Made by a program: the position numbers and the translations under genes
Notes under the pieces: generated by a model
Database searches by the model: none
What the model saw: only the letters and a program-made list of their open reading frames with translations
Told to the model about the DNA's origin: nothing
NCBI GenBank assembly: GCA_019686135.1
Contig: JADGHL010000007.1
Span: 1-64,000 of the forward strand
Length of the DNA stretch: 64,000 nt
Direction of reading: 5' to 3'
DNA from: Myxococcaceae bacterium
GTDB taxonomy: Bacteria; Myxococcota; Myxococcia; Myxococcales; Myxococcaceae
Part shown: positions 7,920 to 15,294 of the stretch, one piece after another
Position numbering within the stretch: the stretch's first letter is position 1
Layout of the letters: the number at the start of each line of letters is the position of its first letter

Positions 7920-8114
7920 TCGTCACGGCCCCGAGACAGTGGTGTCTCCTCGCGTCTCCACCGGCGCCCACCGCGGTTCACACCGCGCGCCCAACTGCTC
8001 TGAATCGCTCGCAGCCCACAGTGGCACACCAGGTGCGAGAGAAGGCGCGCTCCGGCAAACGTCCGGCAAGCCGACCGATGCGAGTGCGCAGCCGTGCAAG
8101 GAGAATTTCCACAA

Positions 8115-8846
8115 ATGACGTCCCGGAGGCGCCGACGGCGCCGCCCGTCCAACTGCCGAGGCCAGGCCGCCGTGGAAAGCGCGCTCACCCTCCCGCTCGC
8201 CGTGTTCCTCGTGCTCGGGACGCTGCAGCTGTTCATGTTGATGCAGGGGCGGGCGATGGCGCAGTACGCGGTGGCGCGCGCCACCCGCGCCGGCAGCGTG
8301 AAGTTCGGGGACTGCACCGCGATGCGGCACACCGCGGTGGCGGCGCTGTTGCCCACCTTCACGCGCACGACGGATCCGTCGCGCTTCGTGGCCGCCTTCG
8401 CCGCGCGGAAGAACGGACGGTTCGATCCCTCGCTGGACAGCGGGCGCGACGAGACGATCGCCTGGATCATCCGCGAGTCCCCGTCGGTGAACCCGAACGC
8501 CGAGGAGGTCTTCGACCTCGCCACCGATCAGCCCATCACCCTGCGGGTGCGGATGGTGTTCTGGTACCCGCTGCGGATCCCCTTCGCCAACATGGTGATC
8601 AGCCAGATCGCGCTCGCGCACTGGGGGCTGCAGAACCTCAGGGGCGCCAACCCGCTGCTGGTCGCGCAGAAGAGCGCCAACTGGAACGACGGCGGGTCGA
8701 TTGCCGGCAACATCGGCGCGGAGCTTTTGCGCCGGGCCAGACGCGCCCACTACTCGCTGCCGATCCAGGTCACCTACTCGATGCGGATGATGACGCCGCC
8801 CCGGCCCGCCAACTTCACCTCCCGGACCTGTTCCCCGTACCCATGA
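8115..8846 (+). CDS. TadE-like pilus assembly protein
   Basis: A 243-residue protein with an Arg-rich N-terminus and then GQAAVESALTLPLAVFLVLG, the TadE signature: a Gly-Gln, a conserved Glu and a single long hydrophobic helix. TadE-family proteins are pseudopilin-like parts of Flp/Tad pili or related secretion systems. An AAGGAG ribosome site lies about ten bases before the ATG. The stop overlaps the next start (ATGA), so three genes form a coupled unit. The soluble part is longer than in classical TadE and has no recognised domain. Confidence 0.8.
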   Translation: MTSRRRRRRRPSNCRGQAAVESALTLPLAVFLVLGTLQLFMLMQGRAMAQYAVARATRAGSVKFGDCTAMRHTAVAALLPTFTRTTDPSRFVAAFAARKNGRFDPSLDSGRDETIAWIIRESPSVNPNAEEVFDLATDQPITLRVRMVFWYPLRIPFANMVISQIALAHWGLQNLRGANPLLVAQKSANWNDGGSIAGNIGAELLRRARRAHYSLPIQVTYSMRMMTPPRPANFTSRTCSPYP

Positions 8847-10987
8847 CGCTCTCCCTCCCCCGTGGCGCGCGTGCGCGCGGACAGACGCTGCTGTTGATGG
8901 CGCTCACCATGCTGGTGGTCGTGCTGATGGCGTGCATGACGCTGTCCATCACCACCCGGGTGCGTCAGAAGCTCGAGCTGCAGACGGTGGCGGATACCGC
9001 TGCGTACAGCCAGGCGGTGGCGACGGCGCGCGCGTTCAACGCGATGGGCGTGATGAACCGCACCATCGTGAGCCACTGGGTGGCGCTGCTGGGGATCCAG
9101 GCCAACGTGGCGTGGGGATCCAGCGTCACCGACTACTTCGACGCCTTCGCCTACGAGCTCAACAAGCTCCGCTACGCGCCCTACGCGCAGTGCCCCACCC
9201 GGGCCGAGGAACGTCAGCGCCAGCGCGAATTGCGCGCCGCCCGCGACGCTTTCCTCCACGCGTCGTTCAGCATGTGGAAGCCGCCGCCCGGCCGGTTCGA
9301 CGACGTCTCGGTGCCGTTCTGTTCTGCGGGGAGCTGCTTCCCGCGCGTCGACTCCGGGAGGCTGGACCGCGCGGTCGTGGCGGAGGCGAAGGACGTCCGC
9401 GAGGCGATCCGCGATCTCGTCGAGGTCCAGCGCGACGTCTACACCGACCTGGTGAAGGCGCTCGGCGAACAGACGCTGGCGAAGAAGATCGCCCTGCTGG
9501 CGCAGGGGAAGACCAGCGGAAATCCGTTCCCGGTGGCGGTGAACCTGGGCGCTGGCTTCGTCCCCCAGCTGGGGCGGATGGATCGCCCCGTGGCGCAGCG
9601 CGAGGTGGAGGGCGCGCTCGGCACGACCCGCGCGGACATCCTGCCGCTCGCGCACGCGGCGATGGGGTCGCGCGGCAACCGCTTCATGATGAGCGGCAGC
9701 CGGGCGAAGGGGAACGGCTTCGTCCACGTGATGCCCCGGCGCGCGCTCATCTACACCGCCCGGATCCAGCGGGCGCTCAACCGCCGCTTCGGCCCTGCGC
9801 GCGGCGGAACCGTGTTCGCGTTCGGCGTCACCTCGGGGCTGACCGCGACCTACCTCGACAACGGCGGCATGACCGAGGACTTCGGCGACGGCGACATCGA
9901 CGAGGTGTGGAACGCCGTCACCGACGCGCAAGCCGACGCTCCGGGCACCGAGGAGGGCGACGTGGTCCCGCCGGACGACGACGTGCAGCCACCCGAGTTC
10001 TACAACGCGGGGCTGGTGAACCGCATCACCCCGTCGCGTTCGCTGGGCTTCACCTACGTCACCAGCCGGCACAACGGGCAGGCCCACATCTACTACCGGA
10101 GCCCCTGCCGCGAGTACAGCCTCGACCCGTATATCGTCTCGATCTCCCGCGCGCGCACCGAGATGTCCGAACCGGCGGTGTCCGCGCACGAGTGGATGAT
10201 CGTGAAGGATCGCGTGGCCAGCCATCGCCAGGCGGACGGCAGCCGCGAGTTCACCAACGAGGGCCAGACGGTGCTGCACGGCACCCAGGCGACCTCCCAC
10301 GGCTACGAGGTCAGCAACCACCGCCCCGGCACCATGTGCCATGCGTGGCACCGGCACTGGTACGAGATCAGCGACGACGCGCACCAGCTGGGCAAGGAGA
10401 TCCAGGAGATGGGCGTGGCGCCGGGTGGGTTCGGGTTCGTGTTCCCCGGCGCGGCTACGAACTGCACCTCGAAGATGAGCGCCTCCGAGTGCAAGGCGCG
10501 CCTCGACAATGCGGGCGCCGGCGGCGCGTTCGGCCAGCCGAAGACGCCCATCCTGCTCACCCGCGCCACCTCCGGACCGGGCGTGACCGACGATCCGTGG
10601 AACCTCACCGTCGGCTTCCGCTTCACCGGAGACGCCAACGGGCCGACCTTCGACATGAAGAAGACCGCCAACGCTCAGCCGCTGGCGGCGCTCTCCACCG
10701 GGATTGCCTACTACCACCGCCGCTGCGACCGCTATCAGGACCCACAGCGAAGGAACCCGAAGCGGCGCGCGGACTGCCGGAGCTGGAAGGAGGCGCCGAA
10801 TCTGCTCAACCCGTTCTGGCGCGCCACCCTGGTCCCCATCGACATCGACGAGTCGACCAGCACCGACGCCACGCCCGGTTCGCGCCTGCGCAACGACGCC
10901 GCGGGGATGCTCGCCGCCACCGGGTTGAACGATGCGGCCCGGACCTACCGGTTGCTCAAGAAGGCGGGCTACGAGGGCATCCAATGA
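8843..10987 (+). CDS. TadG-like large pilus-associated protein
   Basis: A 714-residue protein beginning RGARARGQTLLLMALTMLVV, the N-terminal helix and G-Q-T-L motif of TadG-like (putative Flp pilus assembly) proteins. Directly after the helix comes KLELQTVADTAAYSQAVATA, the usual QxxADxAA stretch. The remaining 650 residues are predicted extracytoplasmic. They hold paired Cys motifs (QCPTRAEE, CSAGSCFP, CREYS) and no integrin-like A domain that I can see. Start and stop overlap both neighbours by four bases, so translation is coupled across the trio. It is much larger than most TadG helices need, so it may be a cargo or tip protein (inference). Confidence 0.72.
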   Translation: MTLSLPRGARARGQTLLLMALTMLVVVLMACMTLSITTRVRQKLELQTVADTAAYSQAVATARAFNAMGVMNRTIVSHWVALLGIQANVAWGSSVTDYFDAFAYELNKLRYAPYAQCPTRAEERQRQRELRAARDAFLHASFSMWKPPPGRFDDVSVPFCSAGSCFPRVDSGRLDRAVVAEAKDVREAIRDLVEVQRDVYTDLVKALGEQTLAKKIALLAQGKTSGNPFPVAVNLGAGFVPQLGRMDRPVAQREVEGALGTTRADILPLAHAAMGSRGNRFMMSGSRAKGNGFVHVMPRRALIYTARIQRALNRRFGPARGGTVFAFGVTSGLTATYLDNGGMTEDFGDGDIDEVWNAVTDAQADAPGTEEGDVVPPDDDVQPPEFYNAGLVNRITPSRSLGFTYVTSRHNGQAHIYYRSPCREYSLDPYIVSISRARTEMSEPAVSAHEWMIVKDRVASHRQADGSREFTNEGQTVLHGTQATSHGYEVSNHRPGTMCHAWHRHWYEISDDAHQLGKEIQEMGVAPGGFGFVFPGAATNCTSKMSASECKARLDNAGAGGAFGQPKTPILLTRATSGPGVTDDPWNLTVGFRFTGDANGPTFDMKKTANAQPLAALSTGIAYYHRRCDRYQDPQRRNPKRRADCRSWKEAPNLLNPFWRATLVPIDIDESTSTDATPGSRLRNDAAGMLAATGLNDAARTYRLLKKAGYEGIQ

Positions 10988-12183
10988 AGGACGCGCGCGG
11001 CCAGTCCACGGTCGAGCTCGCGCTGGGGTCGCTGCTTCTGGTCTCAGTGGTGCTGCTGGGTCTGTACCTGAGCGAGGTGAGCTTTCTGTCGCTCAAGGTG
11101 CAGGAGGCGTCCGCCGCGGCGGTGTGGGACGCCACCGGCCGGCCGGTGCACGACTACACGAAGCAGCGGACCCCGAGCGCGATCGGCCGCGATCTCGCAC
11201 CGTCGATCGCCGCGGCCGCCCAGAAGAAGACGCGCGAGTACGCCGACTTCGACGCGCTCGGGAATGGGGACGGCACCCGGCGTCTGTTTGCGAGCGGCAG
11301 CGGGCTCACCGTGGCGTGCGAGCGCTCCGGCCGCGGCGCGAACGATCCCATCGCCTTCAACATCCGCGCGTCGTCCGACTACGACATTGGCACCGGGCGG
11401 GTGCCGTGGCGGGTGAACCAGCTGCTGCGCGACTACTACCAGCCGCAGGGCGGGACGATCTGCACCGCCAGCGCGCAGGTATTGCCCTGGCAGCTCCCGG
11501 AGAAGTTCTTCGACCGCGACGTGGGCGGCTACTTCTCGCCGTTCCGCCAGGACAAGCGCATCCGCCTGTGTGGCGCGGGCCGCGCGGTGGGCGGGACCTG
11601 CGAAGCGGGGTACGGCGTTCTGTTGGGCGACTGGGGAATGGATCGCAGCTCGCGCAACCCCAACTCGAAGATCGTCTACGACTCGCGCCTGCCCGAGAGC
11701 CCCAACGTGGGGTTCTCCGAAGGCAACAACGACTACCGCGAGATGATCGAGCGGCTGTTCATCACCAGCGGGCAGAAGCCGAACTACGTGGCGCGCGCGC
11801 GCCCGGCGCGGAACCCCGGCGGCGCGTCGGCCCGCTACGCGGCGAAGCTGGGCGCGACCCAGTACTGGTATCCGTACGGCGGCGGGTTGATCCAGACCGT
11901 GCCGGTAGACGAGCGCGCGTTCTACATGAGCTTCTCCGGCGTCGAGCACGGCTTCGGCGACATGCTCGAACCGGACGAGGTCATCACCGATCCGAACTGC
12001 CGCACCTGCCACTTCAACACCGCGGGCACCTCCTCCGTCCAGGGCAACCCCATCGAGACGCTGCAGAGGACCTCGGCGACGAAAGAGGAACGCCAGAACC
12101 TGCGCAATCAGAACTGGACGAGGCTGCGCAAGCCGTGCTTCCTGGGCATCGGCGGATACGGCTGCGAACGTCCGAAGCGGTGA
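10984..12183 (+). CDS. TadE-like protein with a CxxCH motif
   Basis: A 399-residue protein starting at the ATG that overlaps the preceding stop. It opens DARGQSTVELALGSLLLVSV, the conserved Gly-Gln-Ser, Glu and single hydrophobic helix of TadE/pseudopilin-like proteins. The soluble part holds several Cys and one C-R-T-C-H sequence near residue 340, which has the form of a covalent haem site; a single motif may be chance. It ends exactly against the convergent kinase gene. Together with the two upstream genes it forms a pilus-like export unit whose motor could be CpaF at 57-58.7 kb. Confidence 0.75.
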   Translation: MKDARGQSTVELALGSLLLVSVVLLGLYLSEVSFLSLKVQEASAAAVWDATGRPVHDYTKQRTPSAIGRDLAPSIAAAAQKKTREYADFDALGNGDGTRRLFASGSGLTVACERSGRGANDPIAFNIRASSDYDIGTGRVPWRVNQLLRDYYQPQGGTICTASAQVLPWQLPEKFFDRDVGGYFSPFRQDKRIRLCGAGRAVGGTCEAGYGVLLGDWGMDRSSRNPNSKIVYDSRLPESPNVGFSEGNNDYREMIERLFITSGQKPNYVARARPARNPGGASARYAAKLGATQYWYPYGGGLIQTVPVDERAFYMSFSGVEHGFGDMLEPDEVITDPNCRTCHFNTAGTSSVQGNPIETLQRTSATKEERQNLRNQNWTRLRKPCFLGIGGYGCERPKR

Positions 12184-15100
12184 TCAGCGCCGGCCTGCCC
12201 GGGTCCTCGGCGGCGGCGGACCATCCGCCAGGTCCTCCAGCGGGCGGAGCTCCACTTCCAGCATCACGCTGCTCTGGGCCTTCACGTCGACGGGGATGAG
12301 GCTCTCCGGGAAGGGGCGGTACTGCACGCGCACCACGTGACCGCCCGGCCGCGCGGGCGCGAACACCGGCGCGGCGCCCAGGGGCTGACCGTCGAGCGTG
12401 ACGATCGCGCCGACTTTGTTGCCGTCGAGAGTGACCTTCACCTGGATTTCGCCCTCCGGAGAGTCCGAGCCGGATTCGACGATCTGCTTGCGGATGCGCG
12501 GGCGCGCGGCGGCGCTGCGTTTCTCGCGATCGATCCGCGCCTGTTCGGAGCGCTCCTCGACGGCCTCGATCCGTTGGAGCACGTCGGGCGTCGCGGCGGG
12601 AGCCTCCGCGACCGTGGCGGGCGGAGGCGGGGTGACGGCGTCCATCCCCACGAGGTTCATCGGGAGCGGCTGCGCGGGCGGTGGCGTGGTCGGCCGTTCG
12701 AGCAGGAAGGAGAGCCCCACGCCAATCAGCACCAACGCGGCGATCGCCGCGCCCAGCGCCTTTCTGTGGCGGCGGATCCAGCGCTCCAGTACGAGCGCGG
12801 CGGATTCGGCATCCGAAGCCTGAGGCGTGGCCGGATCCGTGCCCGGCTGAGAGAGGCTGAGGCGCGGTGGCGGGGTCGGATCGCCGTCGGCTGGGAGCGT
12901 GCCCGGCTGAGAGAGGCTACGGCGTGGTGGCGGAGTCGGATCGCCGTCCGCGGGGAGGGTGCCCGGCTGAGAGAGGCTACGGCGTGGTGGCGGAGTCGGA
13001 TCGCCGTCCGCGGGGAGGGTGCCCGGTCGAGAGAGGCTGCGCCGCGGCGGAGGAGTGGGATCGCCGTCGGCAGGAGTCACTTCGAGCGATGCGTCCTCGT
13101 CGCCGTCGTGCCCGGCGGGGATCGTCCCCGGACGCGACACCGTCCGCACGCGGCCCGGCTGTTGTGCAGCAGGGATCGTCCCGGGTCGCGAGACGGTGCG
13201 TGCGGGTACTGTGTGGGGCGCGGCGCTGGACCCGTCGCGTGCGTCGAGCGAGGACGCCGTGCGCGCAGACATCCGCTCGCCCGCGCTGCCGGCAGCGGGA
13301 AGCGTCCCGGGGCGGGAAACAGAGCGCGCGGGCACAGCGTGAGGTACGGCGGAGGAGTCGTCGTGTGGGCCGCGCGGGGACTCCGTGCGCGCAGGCTGGC
13401 CCGCGCCGCCCACAGCTGGAAGCGTTCCGGGTCGCGAGACGGAACGCGCCGGCACCGTGTGAGCTGTGGAGCCGGTGTGACTGTGTGAGCTGGGGATTGC
13501 CGCGAGTGGGGACTCCGTGCGCGCGGGCTGGCCTGCGGCGCCGGCAGCAGGAAGCGTCCCGGGCTGGGCGACGGAGCGCGGAGTTTCAGCGTGACGTGCG
13601 GCGCCAGAGTCGTCGGGAGCGCCGGGCGTGGACGCCGCGCGGGCAGACATCTGCTGGCCTGCACCGCCCACGGCGGGAATGGTTCCGGGCCGTGAAACGG
13701 AGCGTATGGGCACCGTATGAGGCGCGGCTCCGGCGTCACCGTGTGAGCCGGGGATCGCTTCGAGTGGGGACGGTGTGCGCACAGGCTGGCCTGCAGCGCC
13801 GGCAGTGGGATGCGTACCCGGCTGAAAGACGGAGCGCTGGGGCAAAGCGTGAGGTGCAGCGCCTGAGTCGTCGGGTGCGCCGGGCGGCGACGCCGTGCGG
13901 GCAGACACCTGCTGGCCTGCACCGCTCGCGGCGGGAAGCGTCCCGGGCCGTGAAACGGAGCGTGTGGGCACCGCGTGAGGTGCGGCACCGGCGTTGTCGG
14001 GAGCGCCGGGCAGGGATGCCGTGCTCGCAGGCATCTGCTGGCCTGCGCCGCTCGCAGTGGGAAGCGTCCCGGGCCTTGAGACGGAGCGCGCGGGCACCGT
14101 GTGCGGTGCGGCGCCGGGACCGGCGGTGGGGATCGCCCCGGGGGGCGACGCAGCGCTCGCGACGCCGTATGAACCGGGGCCCGCAGCAGGAATCGTCCCG
14201 GAGCGGGGAACCGCCCCCGACGCGGCGCCGAGGTCGCCGGGCATGCCCGGCTGTGGCCCGGTAGCGATCGGGATGTCCGGGCCGGTGGCAGCCTCGTCGG
14301 CGCCCGGCGCGACCGGCGTGCCGTCCGGCCCGAGCGGACGCTCGAGCGGAACGCGCTGCAGCGTCACGCGCTCGTCGATGGCCACGCCGAACGCCGCTTC
14401 GAGCGCAGTGGAGAACTCGAGGATGTCCGGGTACCGGTGGGCGGGATCGATGGCCATCCCGCGCGCCACGACCGCGTCGACCGCCAACGGGATGCCGCCT
14501 GCGACGCTCACCGGCGGACGCTCCGCGGTGAGGTGCTTCATCAGAAGCTGCTCCTCGTTCGCGTCGATGAAGGGCGGGAAGCCGGTGAGCAGCTCGAAGA
14601 CGATCACCGCCAGCGAGTACTGGTCCGCGCGGCCGTCTATGTTGCGGTCGCCGACGATGACTTCGGGGGCCATGTACCCGGGCGTGCCGAAGACGATGCC
14701 GGTCCGCGTGAGCGAGCTCCCAGTCGGCCGGGCGATGCCGAAGTCGAAGAGCGTGACGTGGCCGTCCGCGCCGACCATGACGTTGGCCGGCTTTAGATCG
14801 CGGTGCACCACGCCGCGCGCGTGGACCTGGGCGAGCGCGACCGAAAGCTGCCGGACCACGTTGAGGACCTCGTCGCCGCCCAGCCTTCCGCCGCGCGAGC
14901 GCACCAGTGCCGAGAGTGGCTGGCCCTCGACGTAGCGCATCACGATGAACGGGATGTTCCGGTGCCGGCCGACCGCGTGGATCGCCACCACGTTGGGGTG
15001 GTCGATCGCCGCGAGCACGCGCCCCTCGCGCAGGAAGCGTTCGGCGAACTCGGGATCCGGCAGCTTCGAAGAGAGCGTCTTGAGCGCGACCTGCCGGCCG

Positions 15101-15294
15101 AGTCGTTCGTCTGCGGCGAGGAAGACCGTCCCCATTCCGCCGCGGCCGATCACCTTCTCGATGCGCCAGGTGTTCTCGACGAGCTCACCGATCTGCAGAT
15201 CGGGCGCCGTGGAATCCTTTGCGATGCCGCACGCGGGACACGCCATCGCTTCGGCGGAAAGCTCGTTCCCACAGCTTGCGCAGATGTCGGCCAT
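12184..15294 (-). CDS. Ser/Thr protein kinase with zinc ribbon, repetitive linker, TM helix and PEGA domain
   Basis: A 1036-residue membrane kinase. A zinc ribbon (CASCG...CPACG, residues 5-22) comes first. The kinase domain follows: G-loop GRGGMG (50-55), Lys72, HRDLKPAN with Asp166, DFG 184-186, and a GTPGYMAPE segment. Residues about 340-880 are Pro/Ala/Ser-rich and carry 13 copies of R-[ST]-x-[SAF]-[RQ]-P-G-T-x-P variants (one begins L-S). One TM helix (ALGAAIAALVLIGVGLSFLL) precedes an extracytoplasmic PEGA-type domain (VTLDGQPLGAAPVFAPARPG). The start is set at the ATG before the zinc ribbon. PEGA kinases are common in myxobacteria; the signal and substrates are unknown. The linker contains many Ser/Thr that could be autophosphorylated (inference). 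Confidence 0.93.
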   Translation of the reverse strand: MADICASCGNELSAEAMACPACGIAKDSTAPDLQIGELVENTWRIEKVIGRGGMGTVFLAADERLGRQVALKTLSSKLPDPEFAERFLREGRVLAAIDHPNVVAIHAVGRHRNIPFIVMRYVEGQPLSALVRSRGGRLGGDEVLNVVRQLSVALAQVHARGVVHRDLKPANVMVGADGHVTLFDFGIARPTGSSLTRTGIVFGTPGYMAPEVIVGDRNIDGRADQYSLAVIVFELLTGFPPFIDANEEQLLMKHLTAERPPVSVAGGIPLAVDAVVARGMAIDPAHRYPDILEFSTALEAAFGVAIDERVTLQRVPLERPLGPDGTPVAPGADEAATGPDIPIATGPQPGMPGDLGAASGAVPRSGTIPAAGPGSYGVASAASPPGAIPTAGPGAAPHTVPARSVSRPGTLPTASGAGQQMPASTASLPGAPDNAGAAPHAVPTRSVSRPGTLPAASGAGQQVSARTASPPGAPDDSGAAPHALPQRSVFQPGTHPTAGAAGQPVRTPSPLEAIPGSHGDAGAAPHTVPIRSVSRPGTIPAVGGAGQQMSARAASTPGAPDDSGAARHAETPRSVAQPGTLPAAGAAGQPARTESPLAAIPSSHSHTGSTAHTVPARSVSRPGTLPAVGGAGQPARTESPRGPHDDSSAVPHAVPARSVSRPGTLPAAGSAGERMSARTASSLDARDGSSAAPHTVPARTVSRPGTIPAAQQPGRVRTVSRPGTIPAGHDGDEDASLEVTPADGDPTPPPRRSLSRPGTLPADGDPTPPPRRSLSQPGTLPADGDPTPPPRRSLSQPGTLPADGDPTPPPRLSLSQPGTDPATPQASDAESAALVLERWIRRHRKALGAAIAALVLIGVGLSFLLERPTTPPPAQPLPMNLVGMDAVTPPPPATVAEAPAATPDVLQRIEAVEERSEQARIDREKRSAAARPRIRKQIVESGSDSPEGEIQVKVTLDGNKVGAIVTLDGQPLGAAPVFAPARPGGHVVRVQYRPFPESLIPVDVKAQSSVMLEVELRPLEDLADGPPPPRTRAGRR
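12841..13078 (-). repeat. 60-bp tandem repeat inside the kinase gene, four copies
   Basis: Four consecutive 60-base units begin GCCCGG(C/T)(T/C)GAGAGAGGCT. The units starting at 12901 and 12961 are identical over all 60 bases; the outer two have a few substitutions. Each encodes 20 residues built on DGDPTPPPRRSLS-(Q/R)PGT. The identity points to recent duplication and copy-number instability. Confidence 0.9.

Follow-up and report, generated by a model that had tools for sequence, protein, structure and literature searches.

The window analysed here, a 64,000-nucleotide stretch from a Myxococcaceae draft genome (245 contigs, 5.5 Mb), carries on its minus strand a gene for a 1036-aa Hanks-type Ser/Thr kinase (12184-15294, ATG at 15294). 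Pfam recognises a kinase domain (Pkinase, E 1.3e-45), a PEGA domain (E 3.2e-05) and, weakly, a zinc ribbon in the open frame. The zinc-ribbon-like segment at residues 1-25 (15220-15294) has two CxxC pairs visible in the sequence, and its Zn_Ribbon_1 match (E 3.7e-4, 20.6 bits) lies under the curated cut-off of 25. The kinase domain (residues 44-254 by Pfam, 14533-15165) features GRGGMG, VALK, HRDLKPAN, DFG and APE, by which it is assigned to the Hanks type, and the activation loop SLTRTGIVFGTPGYMAPE. Its best sequence matches in the PDB are chains named PknE, PknB and PknA, the PknB chains at about 1e-49 to 1e-46. A Pro/Ala/Gly/Ser/Thr-rich linker (residues ~305-830, 12805-14382) connects this domain to a transmembrane helix (residues ~844-864, 12703-12765), and the PEGA domain lies near the C-terminus (residues 954-1018, 12241-12435). 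The membrane segment is identified from hydropathy and from a helix in the structure model. Extracellular PASTA repeats, which would place the kinase in the PASTA class, were not found by Pfam up to E 1, where PEGA is listed. The PEGA domain is expected outside the cytoplasm; because RWIRRHRK immediately precedes the helix, the positive-inside rule would place the kinase domain and linker within it.

On the plus strand of the window, at 8094-12183, a TadE-like gene (Pfam E 1.7e-7) precedes two large open frames, convergent with the kinase gene; neither large frame has a Pfam match at 1e-3, and one starts ARGQSTVELALG. At 66-729, repeat units of 321 bp (82-85% matches; a period of 156 bp is also present, more weakly) appear by eye to encode an Asn/Gly- and Asp-rich protein, and a GDKGDK-like stretch follows at 1057-1106.

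The linker between the kinase domain and the single transmembrane helix is predicted to be disordered. The structure model was built from a shallow three-row alignment and is of low confidence in general (mean pLDDT 47.4), with block values of mostly 70-90 for the kinase core and 68-75 for the helix, and low ones across much of the PEGA part. Block means fall to 24-45 over residues 311-830, and DSSP assigns no element between 328 and 827. In composition, residues 325-825 comprise 54 Ser, 43 Thr and 36 Arg and not a single Lys.

Embedded in this linker are 13 copies of a short motif core with the consensus R-[ST]-[VL]-S-[RQ]-P-G-T-[LI]-P, spanning residues 403-819 and starting at residues 403, 445, 487, 531, 573, 617, 657, 699, 717, 752, 772, 792 and 812 (window 14088 down to 12838). 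Shuffling the 490-residue linker 3000 times yielded a mean of 0.0017 and a maximum of one chance match to the relaxed motif. The first-pass annotation had placed thirteen R-S-x-S-[RQ]-P-G-T copies between kinase domain and membrane helix at 12841-14240. Their placement holds, as judged from the Pfam domains, the translation and the predicted helix, and so does the total, but the count of strict copies is corrected to eight; the other five cores are variants (two with Thr at position 2, two in which Phe or Ala replaces the Ser of position 4, and one with Leu at position 1). The cores themselves occupy 12838-14088, and the translation of 14089-14240 shows no more than degenerate remnants (PRSGTIP and PPGAIP, for example).

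The cores fall into two arrays. The long-unit array (residues 403-726, 13117-14088) holds nine, with successive spacings of 42, 42, 44, 42, 44, 40, 42 and 18 residues (mostly 120-132 bp); tandem-repeat rows within 13166-14156 give it a period of ~126 bp and a higher-order period of 258 bp. The remaining four belong to a 60-bp (20-aa) array at 12838-13068 with the spacer ADGDPTPPPR (TRF, 3.8 copies, 91% matches). Two adjoining 60-bp units within 12899-13026 are identical, the sequence matching itself at an offset of 60 over 68 consecutive bases (12899-12966 against 12959-13026). This bears out the earlier report of identical neighbouring units and, as far as the duplication of one 60-bp unit is concerned, the recent expansion read from it. 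The draft assembly may have merged additional identical copies into one, and the true number of cores may exceed 13.

The long units are old enough to record which residues have been retained. Seven of them, 65-85% identical to one another, show pairwise dS of 0.25-0.94, and dN is below dS in 21/21 pairs, the pairs not being independent of one another. Across core columns 1-10, dN is 0.097 and dS 0.671 (ratio 0.15), as opposed to a dN of 0.287 and a dS of 0.522 (ratio 0.55) in the spacer columns. The contrast persists when each unit is left out in turn, with ratios of 0.09-0.22 for the core and 0.49-0.61 for the spacer. Core pN is the lowest among 46 circular windows, and among 10,000 random ten-column sets 59 reach it, three of them with pS as high; the core was delimited for looking conserved, so its low pN arises partly by choice, and the undiminished dS alone is independent of that choice. 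Since core dS is no lower than spacer dS, the likeness of the cores is not simply a product of the youth of the units. A comparison of the core between the two arrays (eleven codons), whose spacers differ, likewise gives a dN/dS of 0.15 with near-saturated synonymous sites (pS 0.68), although the two cores were aligned because they match and the low pN is partly by construction.

Individual positions within the core are consistent with this pattern. P6, G7, T8 and P10 are invariant in all 13 cores, position 4 is Ser in 11, and position 2 is Ser or Thr throughout, encoded by TCC, TCT, ACC, ACG and AGC; a codon path TCC-ACC-AGC through Thr would keep the hydroxyl at every step. The core is thus under purifying selection and constrained at the protein level. 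Together, the low core dN/dS with undiminished dS and the retention of the position-2 hydroxyl across codon classes support a selected linear motif, most likely one that is phosphorylated or binds a partner.

A separate resemblance concerns the pattern R[ST]xSxP, which fits ten of the 13 cores as well as a further site at residue 466 and is similar to the mode-1 ligand motif of 14-3-3 proteins. To our knowledge, 14-3-3 proteins do not occur in bacteria, and the likeness is probably a coincidence.

Beyond this gene, the array appears to be private to the gene or its lineage, as far as pattern searches indicate. A DNA pattern for [ST]RPGT(hydrophobic)P has ten matches in the organism's own genome, eight of them in the kinase gene; by eye, the other two lie in non-coding-looking frames beside longer open frames, and the motif was rejected as a common element of other proteins in the genome. 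With a stricter DNA pattern, 34 of 145 genomes of the order have any match, the own genome with eight, in this gene, and the others, all from outside its genus, with at most three. None of the 144 other genomes has a cluster by this strict pattern, and in none of them do two of the listed matches share a contig. Of the kinase ORFs parsed at loci of other genomes, a number of them truncated at locus ends, 26 out of 26 are without the degenerate form [ST][RQ]PG[ST]; this search left out four of the 29 relative loci (L025, L026, L028 and L030), the first three of which (as L181, L182 and L179) entered the linker analysis alone. Nor was it found in the two nearest own-genome paralogs, one of which (on contig C199) is cut by a contig end. 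Its absence from these paralogs and from 26/26 parsed ORFs disfavours an old, widely conserved docking site. A scan of genome contigs returned two distant kinases, one in a Myxococcales MAG and one in a Planctomycetota MAG.

Relative to the rest of the genome, which yields 54 kinase, 40 FHA and 38 PEGA matches (some kinase matches being pieces of one gene), the two nearest paralogs resemble the query in architecture. Their kinase domains, on contigs C199 (locus L170) and C4 (locus L058), are 48% and 49% identical to that of the query, and the C-terminus of the C4 protein is homologous to the query's (score 174, against 73 reversed and 42 for shuffles). Linker self-similarity, scored against 30 shuffles each for linkers of at least 30 aa, gives z values of 61.8 for the query, 27.8 for C199 and 8.3 for C4, and at most 4.1 for other own-genome ORFs. 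This set consists of 47 ORFs, nine of which reach the edge of their retrieved stretch; it was drawn from the 54 matches after setting aside C35, duplicates and matches under 60 bits. Other genomes contributed 14 ORFs: a more distant second kinase of genome G005 reaches a z of 13.4 in a stretch without a transmembrane helix, and the 13 best-matching ORFs have linkers of 29-197 aa with repeat z of at most 3.3. In the tree, the query, C199 and C4 kinases form one group (91/89, not starred), which sits inside a starred five-member group (100/98); its two other members, relatives from G019 and G005, have linkers of 139 and 104 aa that lack strong repeats.

The paralogs therefore share repeat-rich linkers and a conserved kinase domain with the query, whereas their repeat units have no demonstrated relation to its array. 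The C199 linker carries an array of 57-bp, SESPRLSRGAWPEASAQSD-like units (L170 1-238, minus strand) that runs off the contig, and the C-terminus is missing from that contig. The 416-aa C4 linker carries different, imperfect repeats (TRPLAPLAPE..., RSRHH...) and is followed by a transmembrane helix and the homologous PEGA end. Common ancestry of the three arrays remains unproven; BLAST without composition correction gives low E-values (best 3.7e-19, query against C4), but reversed sequences score equally high. The query linker scores 61 against C199, with 58 for the reversed control and 133 of 200 shuffles reaching it, and 205 against C4, with 207 reversed and eight of 200 shuffles reaching it. 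Counts of short patterns offer some contrast to this, though nothing firm, as the copies of a repeat do not count independently: in C4, as in the query, [ST]R[PG] exceeds expectation (6 against 1.6 expected in C4, 1/1000 shuffles), which it does not in C199 (2 against 0.6, 134/1000), and R..[ST] is enriched in the query alone (27 against 7.4). The three kinases thus all have a long repetitive linker, but one whose sequence they do not recognisably share, which implies either independent expansion or turnover.

Two minor alternatives concern the DNA and its assembly. The draft state of the assembly, and the paralog array that runs off its contig, raise the prospect that copy number is distorted or that the arrays were made by misassembly. 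We consider this very unlikely: the seven long units have diverged well beyond identical copies, the frame is open through all units, the array lies inside an 82.5-kb contig, and collapse would lower the count rather than raise it. Alternatively, the constraint could act on the DNA itself or on another, overlapping reading frame, as a plus-strand frame at 12867-14264 (465 aa) and a second minus-strand frame at 13077-13988 are both open over a long stretch, and unit lengths in multiples of three keep any frame open. The differences among the seven units nonetheless fall at kinase-frame codon positions 1/2/3 as 214/151/303, as expected if the kinase frame codes, and synonymous divergence in the core is high; an origin of the constraint in the DNA or another frame is accordingly improbable in the extreme.

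The main rival to a phospho-docking array is a plain entropic tether, indifferent to sequence, in which the linker would set reach and flexibility alone and could be any sequence rich in Pro and Ala, its repeats growing in the GC-rich DNA through slippage and recombination. Much of the comparative record is compatible with such a tether: the linker is predicted to be disordered, the paralogs keep the kinase domain (and, in C4, the C-terminus) and carry other repeats, query-paralog linker scores equal those of reversed controls, and the best-matching ORFs of other genomes manage with short, weakly repetitive linkers. In the available portions of PMC12077195, moreover, StkP with a duplicated linker still phosphorylates its substrates. 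Indifference to sequence is harder to reconcile with a core that changes far less than its spacers at no loss of dS, that recurs in two arrays with different spacers and that keeps its hydroxyl across a serine codon-class switch, and we regard the plain tether as possible but doubtful. A pseudosubstrate or autoinhibitory array, with the motif mimicking the activation loop of its own kinase (S-L-T-R-T-G against S-V-S-R-P-G) and competing for the active site, is an unlikely account. SLTRTG (residue 194) is indeed the best six-residue motif match inside the kinase domain; yet 728 of 3000 shuffled domains match equally well or better, such that the mimicry is not significant, the C-terminal hexamer APARPG scores higher, and a comparable loop in the paralogs (LTKTG, LTRTG) is not accompanied by the motif.

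With regard to how such a motif might be used, the first-pass annotation had suggested autophosphorylation sites or docking sites for FHA-type partners. Selection on the core, the predicted disorder and the 54 kinase and 40 FHA matches in the genome speak for this suggestion, which is partly supported; no support comes from the insignificant activation-loop likeness, from the catalytic loop, from the two nearest paralogs and 26 parsed ORFs, in which the motif was not found, or from the kinase's own contig (C175), on which there is no FHA match. Its further idea that phosphorylation could scale with copy number is a guess; the phospho-dead linker mutant of StkP looked like wild type (PMC12077195). 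A KPEN catalytic loop marks basophilic kinases, and because the query has HRDLKPAN, without the acidic residue at the KPEN position, phosphorylation of R-x-x-S by the kinase itself is not specially favoured. FHA docking on the query linker is possible, given FHA proteins in the same cell. At the C199 locus, a gene with an FHA match (L170 2732-4060, minus strand), whose product was judged sigma-54-activator-like from its sequence, lies ~2.3 kb upstream of the paralog on the same strand, which suggests a kinase-FHA pairing there.

Known systems provide partial parallels. The C-terminal domain (CTD) of RNA polymerase II works by multi-site phosphorylation. Like the linker described here, it is disordered and repeats a short motif of Ser, Thr and Pro in tandem (PMC11502803); the likeness is one of analogy only, as the CTD is eukaryotic and built of a heptad unit, and no relation by descent is claimed. 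PknB of Mycobacterium tuberculosis, by comparison, is represented among the best PDB matches of the query kinase domain. We know of few sites and no repeats in its linker. When phosphorylated, that linker is bound by FhaA, as cited in the part of PMC12077195 available, whereas the query contig has no FHA match. StkP of Streptococcus pneumoniae, as presented in the same portions of that article, is likewise a membrane kinase of the Hanks type in which a disordered linker joins the kinase domain to the transmembrane helix. Its linker is phosphorylated on seven Thr, and the phosphomimetic form favours recruitment of division proteins; linker phosphorylation leaves substrate phosphorylation unchanged, and the phospho-dead 7TA mutant is indistinguishable from wild type in morphology. 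In contrast to the query, StkP has PASTA rather than PEGA outside the cell, no tandem repeat array is described for it in those portions, and streptococci are stated there to be without FHA proteins, as against the 40 matches in this genome. Among the literature matches listed (titles and abstract starts, with subscription journals sparsely covered), no bacterial tandem-repeat kinase linker was present.

Overall, we propose as the best explanation that a single short linear motif, repeated along a lengthy and disordered cytoplasmic tether, forms a multivalent array for docking or phosphorylation at many sites; we judge the chances of this proposal to be evenly balanced. Multi-site phosphorylation or multivalent partner binding is favoured because a short constrained core, with up to three hydroxyls and with Arg, Pro and Gly, is repeated in the disordered tether of a kinase. 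The hydroxyls at positions 2, 4 and 8 would be phosphorylated, either in trans by the kinase itself or by one of the many other kinases of the cell, and near the membrane the array would offer partner proteins, whether of the FHA type or not, a strip for docking or scaffolding. Its units would derive from tandem duplication, after which spacers drift and the motif is kept, and paralogs with other repeat arrays would imply that each kinase may have its own docking code. A broader, speculative version, which we think rather unlikely, is a bacterial counterpart of the CTD idea, wherein each paralog would carry a private, fast-evolving motif array in its membrane tether that provides an insulated code for docking or phosphorylation and a gain set by repeat number.

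Finally, little is understood about the juxtamembrane linkers of bacterial kinases. Their sequences are said, in the portions of PMC12077195 used here, not to be conserved between homologs. In this gene, a single linker serves as its own replicate experiment, as its units reveal ten residues kept by selection while the rest drifts. Disordered, phosphorylated juxtamembrane linkers are known from StkP, PknB and PrkC; arrays peculiar to the individual paralogs would be a new variation on them. If such arrays encode kinase-specific docking, they would help to account for how the dozens of similar kinases in one cell stay free of crosstalk, and changing the number of repeats would be an easy way to adjust gain.
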